Shown here piece after piece: positions 1-19,452 of a stretch of DNA of 34,158 bases; position 1 is the stretch's first letter; each line of letters opens with the position of its first letter. The stretch lies in NCBI GenBank assembly GCA_022865275.1, contig JALIDQ010000005.1:1-34158 (forward strand), in the 5' to 3' direction. This DNA comes from Candidatus Nanohalarchaeota archaeon QJJ-9 (GTDB lineage: Archaea; Nanohalarchaeota; Nanosalinia; Nanosalinales; Nanoanaerosalinaceae). A model generated the notes under the pieces. That model searched no databases. It saw only the letters and a program-made list of their open reading frames with translations, and had not been told where the DNA came from. The position numbers and the translations under genes are program-made.

Positions 1-110
1 GCTCCTTAGCCTCTCTTCTCCTAAGATTTAGAAACTGCAGAATGTCTCTCATCTATCAAGTTATTCGGGTCGGAGACTTAAAACAGCTGGTCCGAACGCT
101 CGGAGAAAAA

Positions 111-1115
111 TCATCCTTTGGACTTATAGACCCTCCACCTTCCTTCTCCCTCCGAATCTATCAGTCGGTAGTGTTCCATCTTGTTGAGGTATTTCCTCAA
201 CATCCTCTTCGTCCTAGGCTCGTCAACCTTTTTCCCGTATTTTTCGTAGAGCTCGCCGGGCTTTATCTTCCCTTCCTCGTTTACAATATCATACAAAGCT
301 TTCTGGTGCTTGTTGAGCTTTTCCACATTCTTCTGCTTCTGGTTCTCCTTAGCGTCAGGAACTGATTCCTGTATCATCTCACGGGTGATCTCTTCTTTAC
401 TCTCCTTCTCAGCCTTCCTGGCCGCAGATCTCAGTATCCCTATAGCTATCCTAGCGTCACCATCAGCCGACAAAGCAACCTTCCTAAGCCTCGATCGGTC
501 TATCGCATCTCTATACAGACCCCATTCCACTCTGTCGCTGAGGATATCGGTAAGCTCATCCGCGGAGTATTTCGAAAACTCTATCCTCTCAGAGTCCATA
601 AGCCTTGAGCGAACTCTCTGGTCCATATTGAAGAACTCGGACTCGCTGTTGGTAATCATTATCATGGTTATGTTAGGCGCGGAGTAGAGATCGTAAAGAA
701 CCTTCTCATCCTCAAGCTGGTCTACTTCATCCAGAATCAAAACATAGGGCAACTGATCGTAGTCCCTCAATCGTTTAAGCAGCTCATCGGTAGGGGTAGA
801 CTGCCTGTGGACGTTCAAAGTCTTTCCTATACCCTCCAAAGCTTTGTATAGGACTTTGAAACGGTTGTAGTTCTCCCAGCAGTTTATGTAGTGGTACTTG
901 ACATCAAGCTGCTCTTTTTCCAGTTTCTCCAAAGTATGCTGAGCTATACAGGTCTTTCCCGTACCTGGCGGCCCAAATAACAAGGAATTATCCGCTTTAT
1001 CTCCCTGGGTTATAGGTTCCAGAGTCTCTGCTAGCCTTTGGACTTCCGCATCTCGATGAACAACTTCCTTAGGGATGAACTCGTCCCGAAGCACTCTTGC
1101 GTCTTGGATAACCAT
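111..1115 (-). CDS. cdc6: Orc1/Cdc6-family AAA+ replication initiator
   Basis: Walker A LLFGPPGTGKT, Walker B VLILDEVDQLED, sensor-2-like ARIAIGILRSAARKAEKE, and a C-terminal region consistent with a winged helix; 334 aa intact ORF. Confidence 0.93.
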   Translation of the reverse strand: MVIQDARVLRDEFIPKEVVHRDAEVQRLAETLEPITQGDKADNSLLFGPPGTGKTCIAQHTLEKLEKEQLDVKYHYINCWENYNRFKVLYKALEGIGKTLNVHRQSTPTDELLKRLRDYDQLPYVLILDEVDQLEDEKVLYDLYSAPNITMIMITNSESEFFNMDQRVRSRLMDSERIEFSKYSADELTDILSDRVEWGLYRDAIDRSRLRKVALSADGDARIAIGILRSAARKAEKESKEEITREMIQESVPDAKENQKQKNVEKLNKHQKALYDIVNEEGKIKPGELYEKYGKKVDEPRTKRMLRKYLNKMEHYRLIDSEGEGRWRVYKSKG

Positions 1116-1661: not shown

Positions 1662-1892
1662 GTGAAAAATATGGGAGACAAGAACCTCGAAGACCAGTTG
1701 AAGAGTATGGACGAAAGGATGCAGGAGCTGGAGAGCCGCATATCCAAACTCGAAGACCAGAATGAGACTAAAGTTCGTGTAGTCGATACGGACAACGGGA
1801 AGAAGATGGTACTAGAGAACCGCCAGCAGACCTGGTTCAGTCCAAACTACTTCCGCAAGATACTCGAAAGAATGGACGAAGAAGACGAGTAA
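1662..1892 (+). CDS. Small acidic coiled-coil protein
   Basis: 76 aa with heptad-like MKNMGDKNLEDQLKSMDERMQELESRISKLEDQ; ATG start; its last 49 nt (up to the first base of the stop) are repeated downstream. Confidence 0.65.
   Translation: MKNMGDKNLEDQLKSMDERMQELESRISKLEDQNETKVRVVDTDNGKKMVLENRQQTWFSPNYFRKILERMDEEDE
1842..1890 (+). repeat. 49-bp direct repeat, copy 1 (3' end of the coiled-coil ORF)
   Basis: CCAAACTACTTCCGCAAGATACTCGAAAGAATGGACGAAGAAGACGAGT, identical to 1938-1986. Confidence 0.97.
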
Positions 1893-1920
1893 GATAGCAT
1901 AAAAGTCCGGGATACTGGGT

Positions 1921-1954
1921 TTGCGGGAGTAGTTTGCCCAAACTACTTCCGCAA
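1921..1954. repeat. Quasi-palindrome, 16-bp arms with 2-nt loop; possible bidirectional terminator hairpin
   Basis: TTGCGGGAGTAGTTTG-CC-CAAACTACTTCCGCAA, one mismatch (G-U in RNA), between convergent genes. Confidence 0.9.
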
Positions 1955-1986
1955 GATACTCGAAAGAATGGACGAAGAAGACGAGT
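1938..1986 (+). repeat. 49-bp direct repeat, copy 2 (intergenic)
   Basis: Exact copy of 1842-1890 at an offset of 96 nt. Confidence 0.97.
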
Positions 1987-1988
1987 GA

Positions 1989-2789
1989 TCAGCTTCCTGT
2001 CGAGCTGTAGTGCTGGAGGCCGAACTTCCAGAATCTGTAGGCTAGGAAGAATATTACAGGACCTATAACCAGGGTTAAAGTCTTCATTTGGGAGTAGCCG
2101 GGCTTTTGTAGCAGATAGGTTGCGGGGAAGAAAGAGGCAAAGGCTATAGGGATCAAGGTGGTTAGGAGGATTTTTATCCCTCCAGCATAGATCGAGAGAG
2201 GATACTTCCTGAAGTTGGAGAACTCGAAGATTATGCGGGTCATCGCGTCAGACCTCCCTGACCAGAAGGAAACGGTTACAAAGGCTAGGAAAAGCCCGCA
2301 TAGAACCATTACACCACTTAATATAGATAGAATTCCATAAGCTAAGGTTATAGGAGATAAAGTAATACCTAACCTTGAACCAGCCCAGATAAGAAGTGCA
2401 GTCTGTATGAAAAGGCTTGAAACGTCGTCGTCCGATAAGTGTTGCGAATAGAGCTGGAACAAAACGTCTAAAGGCCGTAGTAAGAGGCGGTCGAACCTCC
2501 CAGTTCTTATATGGTCGCCTAAAAAATGGGTTCCGAAGAAGAAAATGTTATGGAGCTGGAATATTATTCCTCCATAGCCCAGGAGGAACAGAACTTCATA
2601 GTACGACCATCCTGCTACAGTACGGGTTTGAGAGTAGATGATGGAAATAAATGCGATGCTTGTCGCTGTAGCTATGGTCTGAGCAATAAGACCTGTTACA
2701 AAGTCTCCTTTGTAGACCAGACGGGACTTCCAGTACTGCTTGAAGTATCTCCAGTAGATTGTAAGGTAGCGCTTAGCTCTTTTTATCAT
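1989..2789 (-). CDS. ABC-2 type exporter permease
   Basis: Multi-TM protein paired with a second permease and an ATPase. Start chosen at MIKRAKRYL (2789), just after the upstream stop; the longer ORF runs to 2870. Confidence 0.82.
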   Translation of the reverse strand: MIKRAKRYLTIYWRYFKQYWKSRLVYKGDFVTGLIAQTIATATSIAFISIIYSQTRTVAGWSYYEVLFLLGYGGIIFQLHNIFFFGTHFLGDHIRTGRFDRLLLRPLDVLFQLYSQHLSDDDVSSLFIQTALLIWAGSRLGITLSPITLAYGILSILSGVMVLCGLFLAFVTVSFWSGRSDAMTRIIFEFSNFRKYPLSIYAGGIKILLTTLIPIAFASFFPATYLLQKPGYSQMKTLTLVIGPVIFFLAYRFWKFGLQHYSSTGS

Positions 2790-2791
2790 GT

Positions 2792-3580
2792 TTAGCCTCC
2801 TTGCACGGTTAGCTTCTCCTTTGCCCGTCTCCAGATAAGACTGCTGGCTAGGAATAGAATTCCCAGCCATACAAGCTGTTTGAAAAGTATGTTAGGGATG
2901 TTTGATAAAGCAACTTCTCCTACAAAGATAGAGGCAGGAGTGTATATCATGCTCTTGAACGGAAGGAAGGAAAAAGCGTTCTGGAGGAAAGGCGGTAGGA
3001 TATAGAGAGGAAACAGTCCACCACCGAAGAATCTGGTGAGGAAGTCCCGTATAAAGGCGAGGCTCCATCCGACCTTTGTCCAGAACACAAACATCGCCAT
3101 AGAGTATGAGAATAGGAATACAAGACAGTAAGCTAGGCCTAGGCTAAAAAGAAATCCTAGAAATCGTAAGGAACCAGGTAGAGGTATTTCTATAAAGAAG
3201 AGCATAACTAAGAATACAGGGATAGATCTTGTCAAAGTCTTAAAGACTGATACACCTAGTTCCCCGAAAAACATCTGTGTTCTAAGTGAGACCGGTCTCT
3301 TGAGCTCGTTTACAACGTTTCCCCGCCTTACAAGAGTTCCTATACGGTTTTCTACGCTTATAGATACTGTAGAAGCCACTATCCGAGCCATCACAAGATA
3401 TGTAAATATCTCCATGAACGACCTTTCAAGCGAACCACTAGCCGCTATAGCTTTCCAAAGGTAGTAGAGTACCGCTAAAAAGATAAAAGCGGATAAAAAC
3501 CTTGCAAGAGCGTTGAATCGGTACTGAGAGTACTTGGAAAACCCTTTGTGCATGAGCTGGTAGTATTTTTTGAGATACAT
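2792..3580 (-). CDS. ABC-2 type exporter permease
   Basis: 262 aa, multi-TM, adjacent to the ATPase and the other permease. Confidence 0.85.
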   Translation of the reverse strand: MYLKKYYQLMHKGFSKYSQYRFNALARFLSAFIFLAVLYYLWKAIAASGSLERSFMEIFTYLVMARIVASTVSISVENRIGTLVRRGNVVNELKRPVSLRTQMFFGELGVSVFKTLTRSIPVFLVMLFFIEIPLPGSLRFLGFLFSLGLAYCLVFLFSYSMAMFVFWTKVGWSLAFIRDFLTRFFGGGLFPLYILPPFLQNAFSFLPFKSMIYTPASIFVGEVALSNIPNILFKQLVWLGILFLASSLIWRRAKEKLTVQGG

Positions 3581-15083: not shown

Positions 15084-18000
15084 CTATCCACACTCGGAAT
15101 AGCCACAGTTCTCGCACTTGACACATCCTTCCGAATAGGTAAGTATAGCCCCACATTCAGGACATTCAGGATTCTTACCATCCTCCACAAGCTGTTCAGC
15201 GTTATTCTCCGAACTTTCCTCCTTATTGTCTTCTAGCTCCTCTTCTTCCTCATCTGATCCTCCTTCTTCGGAAAAACTGGAGACGTTTGCCTGGACCTTT
15301 TTCGCCTCTCCTTCTACATAGCGGTTTATAGCTTTTGCAATACCGTCTGGAATAGACAGAACCTTCTCAGAATTGTCCCAAGAAATCTTAGGCGAACGGA
15401 TACCTTCTAGCTGGTCCACAACCCTTTCAGGGTCAACCCCAGACCTTAAAGCGAGGGAAGAAAGGCGGGAAATTCCTTCAGTAAGGGAATGTGTAAAGCC
15501 CCCAGACTTACCCATCTGGGTGAAAAGCTCAAATACCCCTTCCTCATCCTCATTTATCGTAACATAAAGGCTTCCATACCCTGTATCTATCTTCTGAGTC
15601 GTTCCTGATATTATAGAAGGCCTGTCCCTAGGTTCATCAGCCTCACCTCTATCAAAACCGATTGAGACATCTGCCTCATCTAAAAAGTCCTTTACACCAC
15701 CGTAATTCTCCTTTATTTTGTCCAATACCTCTTCCGCGTCCATATCTTCTAACTTGTTGTCCTTTCTTGTAGTCATTACCTGAGTCTCTCGGGAGCCATC
15801 CCTGTATACGGTCAGGCCTTTACAGTCCTCATCGTACGCCAGCATATAGGCTTCCGCGATATCGTCCCTTGTAGCGTCATTAGGAAAGTTGCAGGTCTTT
15901 GATATGGCCGCATGGTTGTACTCCTGGAAAGCAGCCTGTATATTCACATGTTCCTTCGCAGAAACGCTGTCTGCTGTAACAAAAAGCTCCTTAGCCTCTT
16001 CAGGCAGAACCTCGTCAGGCAGGGACTCAACACCCTCCCACTCATTGCTTTCCATGAGACCTACAGCCTCTTCTTTCACTTTTTCCACGTCTATATCGTT
16101 CTCTTCCAGAGTCTTGAGGAAATAATCGTCAAACTCTACAAGCATATCCTCGCCCTGGATATCCTTACCAACATTCTTGAAGTAGGCTAGGCTAAAGATA
16201 GGCTCGCATCCTCCAGAGGTATTAGCTATCATAGAAGTCGTTCCAGTAGGAGCGATAGTCGTGGTCTTATGGTTTCGGAGCTCAAACCCGTCCTTGTACT
16301 CTTCAGGATCCTTTCCTCCAGTATGATTCCTAAACCATTCCGGATAATCGGTAGGAGAAGCCCATTTACTATCCTCCCACTCAGCGAACCTCCCGCGTTC
16401 CTCCGCAAGTTCATGCGACTTCTCTACGCTGAACTTGACAAGAAGTCTCTGAATCTCTTTTGCCGCAGCATAAGACTCCTCACTTCCGTAAGGAATTCCT
16501 AACTGAATCAATAGTTGTGCGAAGCCCATTAATCCCAGTCCAATCTTCCTTGTACTAGAGACTTTCTCCTCTATCTCCTCAAGAGGAAAGTTACTCATGG
16601 TTGCGACGTTGTCCAAAAACCTTGTAGCGAGCTTGGCAACCCTTTCCAGCTCATCCATCCTTATCGCATCTTGCAGATAATCCTGCATCGCTTCTTCCAG
16701 GCCGCCTCTATCATCGTAGTCATAGTCATGCTTTTTCTTCCAGTCGTTGAACTTTAGAGCAGAGCCATCTCCTTTGTCCTCAACCATCAAAGAAAGGTTT
16801 ATATGGCCTAAATTACACGCTTCGTAGTTTTCCAACGGCTCCTCCCCGCAGTTGTGGACTACAAAGCCATTGGCTATGAATGAATGGGTGCCAGGTTCTT
16901 TCAGGTCGTAAACATTCTCCTCACCCAGCTCTTCGAAGGACTCGACCGTAGCCTTGAATTTCTGCGTATAAGGTCCTCTATCATATTCCTCAAGAAGCTC
17001 CTCAAGCCTCTCCTGCTTTCTATCGAGAAGGAATCCTATCTCTTCACGGAAGGTCTCTAACGAGTCCTTGCTTACAACCAGATCATGCTGCGGCTTTGTC
17101 CTGTACTCCTTGCTTCCTCCCTTGCCGTCAGGCATCTCTCTCATCTGTTCGTCTCTCCTGTTGCTATAGATTTTGCTGTATATACCATAATTAAGAAGCA
17201 GCTTCTGAACCTGTTCAAGGAGACCTAGCTCAGAGCTTGAAAGCCTTACAGATACTCCTTTTTCAACAGTTCCCTGTACAGAGCCGTCAGCTGTAAATAG
17301 TCCCTGAAGGAAACCTGTAGCAAGCTCTCTGCTCGACCTGAACAGCTTACCAGGAACCTGGACCTTGTTCTCGACCAGATCGTAGTCTTCCAACTGTTCG
17401 TAGAACCTTGCAGATCTTACTCTTTCCTCGACTGGCTCACTGTTCTCCACCTCCATAACACCTATCTCATAGTCTCCATTGCCTTCAGGCTCTCTAACAA
17501 TCTGGTTCATATAACCTGCAAACTCCTCAGAAAGCTCTCTATCATCACCGTAAAACCTTAGAACAGCTCTTTCTTCAGAGTTTTTGACCTGCCCGTCTCC
17601 TACAAGCCAACCTAGAACTCTTCCTTCTTCAACAGTTCCTCCCTCACCGAAGAAGTCTTTCCTGTCGGATATAAATACTTCTTCACCTTCAGAAAGCTCC
17701 CCTGCTTCCTTCCAGCCTTTCTCCGTCCTGAAGCGGTGGTCTTCTGTAACCTTTATAGAGTATCCTTCTCTCGTCTTCAGTCTGTAGACTTCTTTTGTTC
17801 CGGTTTCAAAAATCTCGGAAGCCTTTCCGAACTTCTTATCGCTCAAGCGAGAGTCCAGAAGTATTTTTTCCTCCTCGCCAACCAGTTCCACTATAGGAAC
17901 CATGCCTTTCTCAGTGGATACTAGAGTATCACCAGTCACGCAGGGATTAGTGGACTCCATCCTATGGTCTGGCTGCTCCTCTACATCAAAGCTGTGCCTT

Positions 18001-18992
18001 CTATTCGCCTCGTCTATCATGAACAAGCCTGGTTCACCGTTCCTCCATGCTGAATCAACCATAGCGTTCCAGACAAGTTTGGCGGGAAGCTCCATTACCT
18101 CTCCTTTTTCCAGCTCTATATCGAAATCATTAACTCCTTCAAAACTATCCGCATAGTCTCTCCAGAAGTTCTTGTCCTGCTCTATATCGCTTCCCTGTGC
18201 CTGAGGATAGTATTCCTCGTCTGTATTGTAGAACTCCTGGTTCGCCTCCGTAACCTTGTGAGGCTCCCCATCCTGCGGATTGTAGAAAGTATAGGTCTCA
18301 TCGTTCCTTACCGCCTCCATAAACTCGTCAGTTACTCCTACAGATATGTTGAAGTTTGAAAAATCTCCTTCCTCTCTTTTAGAAACAATAAAGCGCAAGA
18401 TATCTGGATGTTCAACCTTCATTACCGCCATCTGGGCTCCTCTACGCTTTCCTCCTTGCTTTACCGTACCGCACATCTCGTCGTAAACCTGCATGAATGT
18501 TAAAGGGCCAGATGCGACTCCTCCAGTAGAGCTTACCGCATCCCCTTTCGGCCTAAGCAGATGGAAAGGGTAGCCTACTCCTCCACCGCTCTGAAATATC
18601 TTCGCTGCCTCCTTCACAGTGGAAAAGATACTGTCCATCGAATCCTCAGGATGTAAGACAAAACAGGCAGAAAGCTGCTGCAGGTGGTTTCCTGCGTTCA
18701 TAAGAGTCGGGGAGTTAGGCATAAACTTCAGATCAGCCATAAGATTCTTGTACTGTTCAACCGCTTTTTCATAGTCTATATAGTCCTTGTCAGCCTTTGC
18801 AACGTTTTTAGCAACTCTATCAAACAGATCTTCAGGATCTTCAACAACATTTCCTTCTTCATCCCGCTTGAGGTATCGGGCAGGAAGTATTCTCTCGTAA
18901 ACATTATCTGTAAGTTTCTCCTCCAATTTTTCTCCTTCAACGCGTTTAACAGGTAATTTAAAACTTTCTGAATCTTCTTGTGAGCTGTTCAT
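15084..18992 (-). CDS. nrdJ: Class II (adenosylcobalamin-dependent) ribonucleotide reductase, intein-containing
   Basis: [14 protein letters not shown]-like segment ([14 protein letters not shown]), [17 protein letters not shown] split by an intein, [10 protein letters not shown]-like segment ([10 protein letters not shown]), C-terminal zinc ribbon CPECG...[10 protein letters not shown]. Start at MNSSQ (18992). Confidence 0.93.
   Translation of the reverse strand: [1302 protein letters not shown]
16851..17942 (-). mobile_element. Intein (364 aa) with LAGLIDADG/DOD homing endonuclease, inside nrdJ
   Basis: Starts [13 protein letters not shown], has VTEDHRF block B, [10 protein letters not shown] and [12 protein letters not shown] endonuclease motifs, ends [15 protein letters not shown]; removal restores [24 protein letters not shown]. 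Confidence 0.95.
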
Positions 18993-19002
18993 GATTTTAC
19001 CT

Positions 19003-19452
19003 CTATATATCTGAAAGCTGCTTGAGTTCTTCCTGGAAAGATTCCAAGTTGTCAAAAGACTGGTATACCGAGGCAAACCGTAGATAGGCTACCTCATCTT
19101 TTTCCTTCAGCTTCTCCATAACTAAGCGGCCTATCTCCTCAGAACTTACCTTATCCTTTCCTAAATCAATTATTTCTTTTTCAACCCCATCAACTAGCTT
19201 CTCAAGCTCCTCCTCGCCTATCGATTTTTTTTCAAAAGCCTTCTCAATACCTTCGCGAAGCTTTTCGCGTTTAAACGACTCTATAGACCCATCCTTTTTC
19301 ATAACCTCAATGTCAGGAGAGCTTACCTGCTCATAAGTGGTAAACCTCTCCTCACACGTGTTGCATTCCCTTCTACGCCTGACTCTATTGTTAGATGTTA
19401 GGCGGGTATCGACTACCCGGGTATCGTTAGTGGAACAGTAGGGGCATCGCAT
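19003..19452 (-). CDS. nrdR: Transcriptional repressor NrdR
   Basis: Zinc ribbon MRCPYCSTNDTRVVDTR...RRRECNTCEERFTTYEQ followed by an ATP-cone; directly upstream of nrdJ. Start at 19452. Confidence 0.93.
   Translation of the reverse strand: MRCPYCSTNDTRVVDTRLTSNNRVRRRRECNTCEERFTTYEQVSSPDIEVMKKDGSIESFKREKLREGIEKAFEKKSIGEEELEKLVDGVEKEIIDLGKDKVSSEEIGRLVMEKLKEKDEVAYLRFASVYQSFDNLESFQEELKQLSDI

Follow-up and report, generated by a model that had tools for sequence, protein, structure and literature searches.

The window, by which we mean the whole stretch of DNA analysed here (34,158 nucleotides of the salt-lake archaeon Candidatus Nanohalarchaeota archaeon QJJ-9, from an archaeal (Nanohaloarchaeota) bin of 625 kb in 34 contigs), carries a small coiled-coil gene of unknown function (1671-1892, plus strand; 73 aa; stop TAA at 1890-1892) whose 3' end is duplicated. 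Near it lies an Orc1/Cdc6-like AAA+ gene (111-1115, minus strand), and an ABC-2 permease gene (1989-2870, minus strand; Pfam ABC2_membrane_6) converges on it from the other side. Our repeat search confirmed that a 49-nt segment recurs exactly (1842-1890 and 1938-1986; 49/49 identical, offset 96). The preliminary description of this locus had called the segment the last 49 nt of the ORF; the position of the repeat stands, but the block takes in the final 48 coding bases together with the first base (T) of the stop.

Read 5' to 3', copy 1 (1842-1890, plus strand), which sits in the ancestral gene context, is followed by a 30-nt filler (1891-1920), an inverted copy of 1843-1858 (1921-1936, minus strand; 15 of 16 bases identical, with one A to G change), a single C (1937), copy 2 (1938-1986, plus strand; 100% identical to copy 1) and the permease gene from 1989. 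The insert between the two 49-nt copies measures 47 nt, and copy 2 ends in a TGA (1986-1988) that adjoins the opposite-strand permease stop (1989-1991). The inverted piece matches 1939-1954 as well as it does 1843-1858 (94%, 15/16), and with a gap of 2 nt it completes the 16-2-16 quasi-palindrome at 1921-1954 (plus strand) that had been described previously; as plus-strand RNA this would form a hairpin in which all positions are paired. Within the window, the two copies are the sole exact direct repeat of at least 16 nt within 500 nt, and 1921-1954 is the top quasi-palindrome. When the 47-nt insert was shuffled 5,000 times, the longest inverted match with the duplicated segment came to 14 nt, short of the 16 nt in the actual sequence, and a chance origin of the direct and inverted repeats is excluded. 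That a stop codon directly follows both copies (TAA and TGA) is weak evidence, since it would happen by chance in about 3 of 16 cases. The copies differ at 0 of 49 bases, which limits their divergence to about 6% at most (95% bound). This limit is of the order of the 3.4% by which strains differ at the cdc6 end on contig C14, and so the duplication appears to be recent. Because copy 1 retains its immediate stop codon, the annotated product of the small gene is unaltered.

Two further features of this DNA are recorded here as separate observations. Contig C14 (L050:1-954) starts with 119 nt that are a variant, 96.6% identical, of the 3' end of the window's cdc6 gene (window 1-234 region), continues for about 730 nt with ORFs that by eye resemble a toxin of the PIN-domain type with a small antitoxin, and then carries 104 nt identical to window 1-104; it and the window may represent strain variants with and without a toxin-antitoxin-like cassette. 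In addition, a long minus-strand ORF at window 15084-19076 looks, by eye from its translation, like a ribonucleotide reductase with an intein (CVTGDTLV ... VVHNC).

Relatives of the locus and the rest of the genome

No Pfam family scored over its cut-off for the 73-aa protein, and its C-terminal motif (VRVVDT..GK..VLE.R.QTWFSPNYF..ILE) is conserved across relatives, where it is invariant. The nearest gene-carrying relatives in the genome collection are the Candidatus Nanohalarchaeota / Nanoanaerosalina metagenome bins NHA22-NHA25, which belong to a published bin set (PMC9765267). The small gene lies beside an Orc1/Cdc6-like gene in three same-family genomes too, and at a different location in a fourth, more distant genome. 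All four of the relatives that carry it have a single 3' end with the conserved residues and no second copy, which argues that the duplication is lineage-specific. These relatives belong to other genera or families that are too distant for intergenic alignment, and in all four the 3' flank of the small gene is unrelated to the window's flank. A search of viral contigs for the gene end (other strains) gave no match. On the other side of the locus, permease relatives within the order align to the last residue, and the C-terminus compared in detail has the same YSSTGS; because the alignment runs through this last residue, the sequence to the right of copy 2 is taken as ancestral. Both outer flanks are thus ancestral, and the material between them is new to the lineage.

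We sampled ~256 kb of the genome, comprising the window and 13 other stretches (12 contig stretches plus a portion of C14), and found no other quasi-palindrome with arms of at least 14 nt. BLAST against the organism's own genome returned the region without a second copy, and a reading of the duplication as a repeat or mobile element was rejected when neither BLAST nor the ~256 kb sample yielded further genome copies. For the filler, a pattern search with its 20-nt core (up to 3 mismatches) detected no source in the window or elsewhere in the assembly, and its best local match in the sample (11, against 10-14 for shuffles) was not above chance. The remaining short-distance exact repeats in the ~256 kb were a masked N run, low-complexity coding repeats on one contig, and two tRNA-associated repeats; the coding repeats (L059:13982-16007) have periods of 81, 129 and 210 nt.

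Origin of the second gene end

As the best explanation of the locus, and a fairly probable one, we take a recent rearrangement that arose locally in this lineage while DNA was being synthesised, by foldback or template switching. It is best supported because the arrangement is absent in relatives, is unique in the sampled genome, and combines direct and inverted copies of one source. Synthesis would have passed through the gene end; the nascent strand would then have changed template, or folded back on itself, and picked up a reverse copy of 16 bases (1858 to 1843) before resuming at position 1842 and reading through the gene end a second time. A second junction, by deletion or by an additional switch, would then have joined copy 2 directly to the permease end. 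The template switch proposed in the preliminary description is in this respect incomplete. One switch is insufficient, since it predicts the filler (1891-1920) after copy 2, and GATCAGC of the permease end is found there instead. Two orders of events could be envisaged. In one, the filler and additional sequence would have lain between the ancestral gene end and the permease, and the switch would have been followed by deletion of the second filler; in the other, gene end and permease would have adjoined at TGATCA in the ancestor, with the filler, the inverted piece and another gene end entering through a complex event. The data favour neither order. Counting against a template switch are the filler, for which no template was found in the assembly, and the one mismatch between the inverted piece and its source. 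If real, the locus would be a clear small scar of the template-switch type in an uncultured, reduced-genome archaeon. The rearrangement was probably neutral; gene content is unaltered, no new system is indicated, and the probable consequence is none.

The alternative that survives best, although we regard it as unlikely, is that the second gene end was added artificially, either by an in-vitro foldback chimera during amplification or library preparation or by a wrong join between strain variants. Inverted junctions are a product of foldback chimeras, and the assembly does mix strains, as is seen on contig C14, where the variant cdc6 3' end occurs together with an exact stretch of the window's left end. 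Against this, no comparable quasi-palindrome occurs elsewhere in the ~256 kb of assembly, the inverted piece carries a substitution that a fresh in-vitro copy usually lacks, and common assemblers finish with a k-mer longer than the 49-nt repeat. The published family relatives, moreover, are Illumina metagenome bins and not amplified single cells (PMC9765267), which may not hold for this genome. Uniqueness in the sample and the substituted inverted piece mildly favour a real event.

An improbable alternative is an element-like short insertion with target duplication, in which the 47-nt insert would be flanked by the two gene-end copies. A similar layout does exist at three tRNA genes, two in this genome and one in a genome of another family, each with a copy of its own 3' end 77-89 nt downstream. 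The window's insert, however, has no other copy in the genome and no recognisable sequence in common with the tRNA-associated element, its right end derives from the gene itself, and a target duplication of 49 nt would be very long.

The tRNA loci constitute an observation in their own right. At all three (L058:15095-15204 and L061:2858-2969, minus strand, in the same genome as the window, and L064:41-191 in a genome of another family, G009), the 21-23-nt 3' end is repeated directly behind a shared 19-nt sequence, CTCTGNCGAGAATCTCAGG. Two of the three genes carry insertions of 79 and 91 nt in the anticodon loop region according to the Rfam model, and L064 has an additional partial tRNA 3'-end copy at about 364-387. 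The tRNA copies resemble attachment-site remnants of a tRNA-integrating element, here a candidate element, and are perhaps more interesting than the 49-nt duplication. The 19-nt sequence had one match in viral contigs, within coding sequence and with no tRNA, which we took as chance. That one shared activity duplicates tRNA and protein-coding 3' ends a short distance downstream in this lineage, with the 49-nt copy and the tRNA copies as examples, seems to us very improbable.

It had also been suggested that the hairpin, lying as it does between convergent stop codons, could terminate both genes, and more broadly it might be a working 3'-end element (a terminator or mRNA stabiliser) common to the two; this we find distinctly improbable. 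The plus-strand fold is very stable (-32.7 kcal/mol for 1885-1990, z -4.15; second run z -4.48), and the single stem change is compatible with a G-U pair on this strand. A stable plus-strand fold is inevitable given the palindrome, and the minus-strand fold is weaker (z -2.2). Apart from the stable fold, nothing supports termination of the two genes at the hairpin: there is no T-run of at least 5 close by on either strand, the next being at 2171 (plus strand) and 1665-1669 (minus strand), and hence none at or after the stem as a U-tract terminator would have; a terminator scan gave no match at the site, and no Rfam families were found in the window. Relatives do not share the fold, their 3' flanks being unrelated and folding with z -1.1 to -2.4, and T-runs of at least 5 lie downstream of the small gene in 3 of 3 same-family relatives. 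A study of archaeal termination reports a correlation of its efficiency with U-tracts and with aCPSF1 (PMC8716108).

Read-through of the TAA, also raised earlier, would extend the protein by a second tail (DSIKVRDTGFAGVVCPNYFRKILERMDEEDE) and can be set aside as highly improbable: the frame is indeed open as far as the TGA at 1986, but a run of about 15 codons free of stops in a given frame has a chance of roughly half, and a duplicated tail is absent from every relative.

Comparison with known rearrangements

The preferred reading, a local foldback or template switch, has several described counterparts. Quasi-palindrome correction (the Ripley model) likewise involves a template switch in or around an inverted repeat; in the window, by contrast, the inverted repeat would have been created and not corrected by the event, and relatives show no older quasi-palindrome. 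Palindrome extension with amplification in rad27-deletion yeast (PMC5677150) is similar in that foldback of the nascent strand produces a larger palindrome together with a duplication, although it concerns another organism, no replication defect is known here, and the window provides one instance. The four-point short-range template switch (PMC7954356) differs in that a single event, which predicts filler after copy 2, does not account for all differences from the ancestor, and the window requires an extra junction. It resembles the window in two respects: a reverse-complement fragment is taken from a nearby source, as with 1921-1936 and 1843-1858 (15/16), and a return point before the departure point generates direct plus inverted repeats, as with copy 2, which restarts at source position 1842, one base past the inverted piece.
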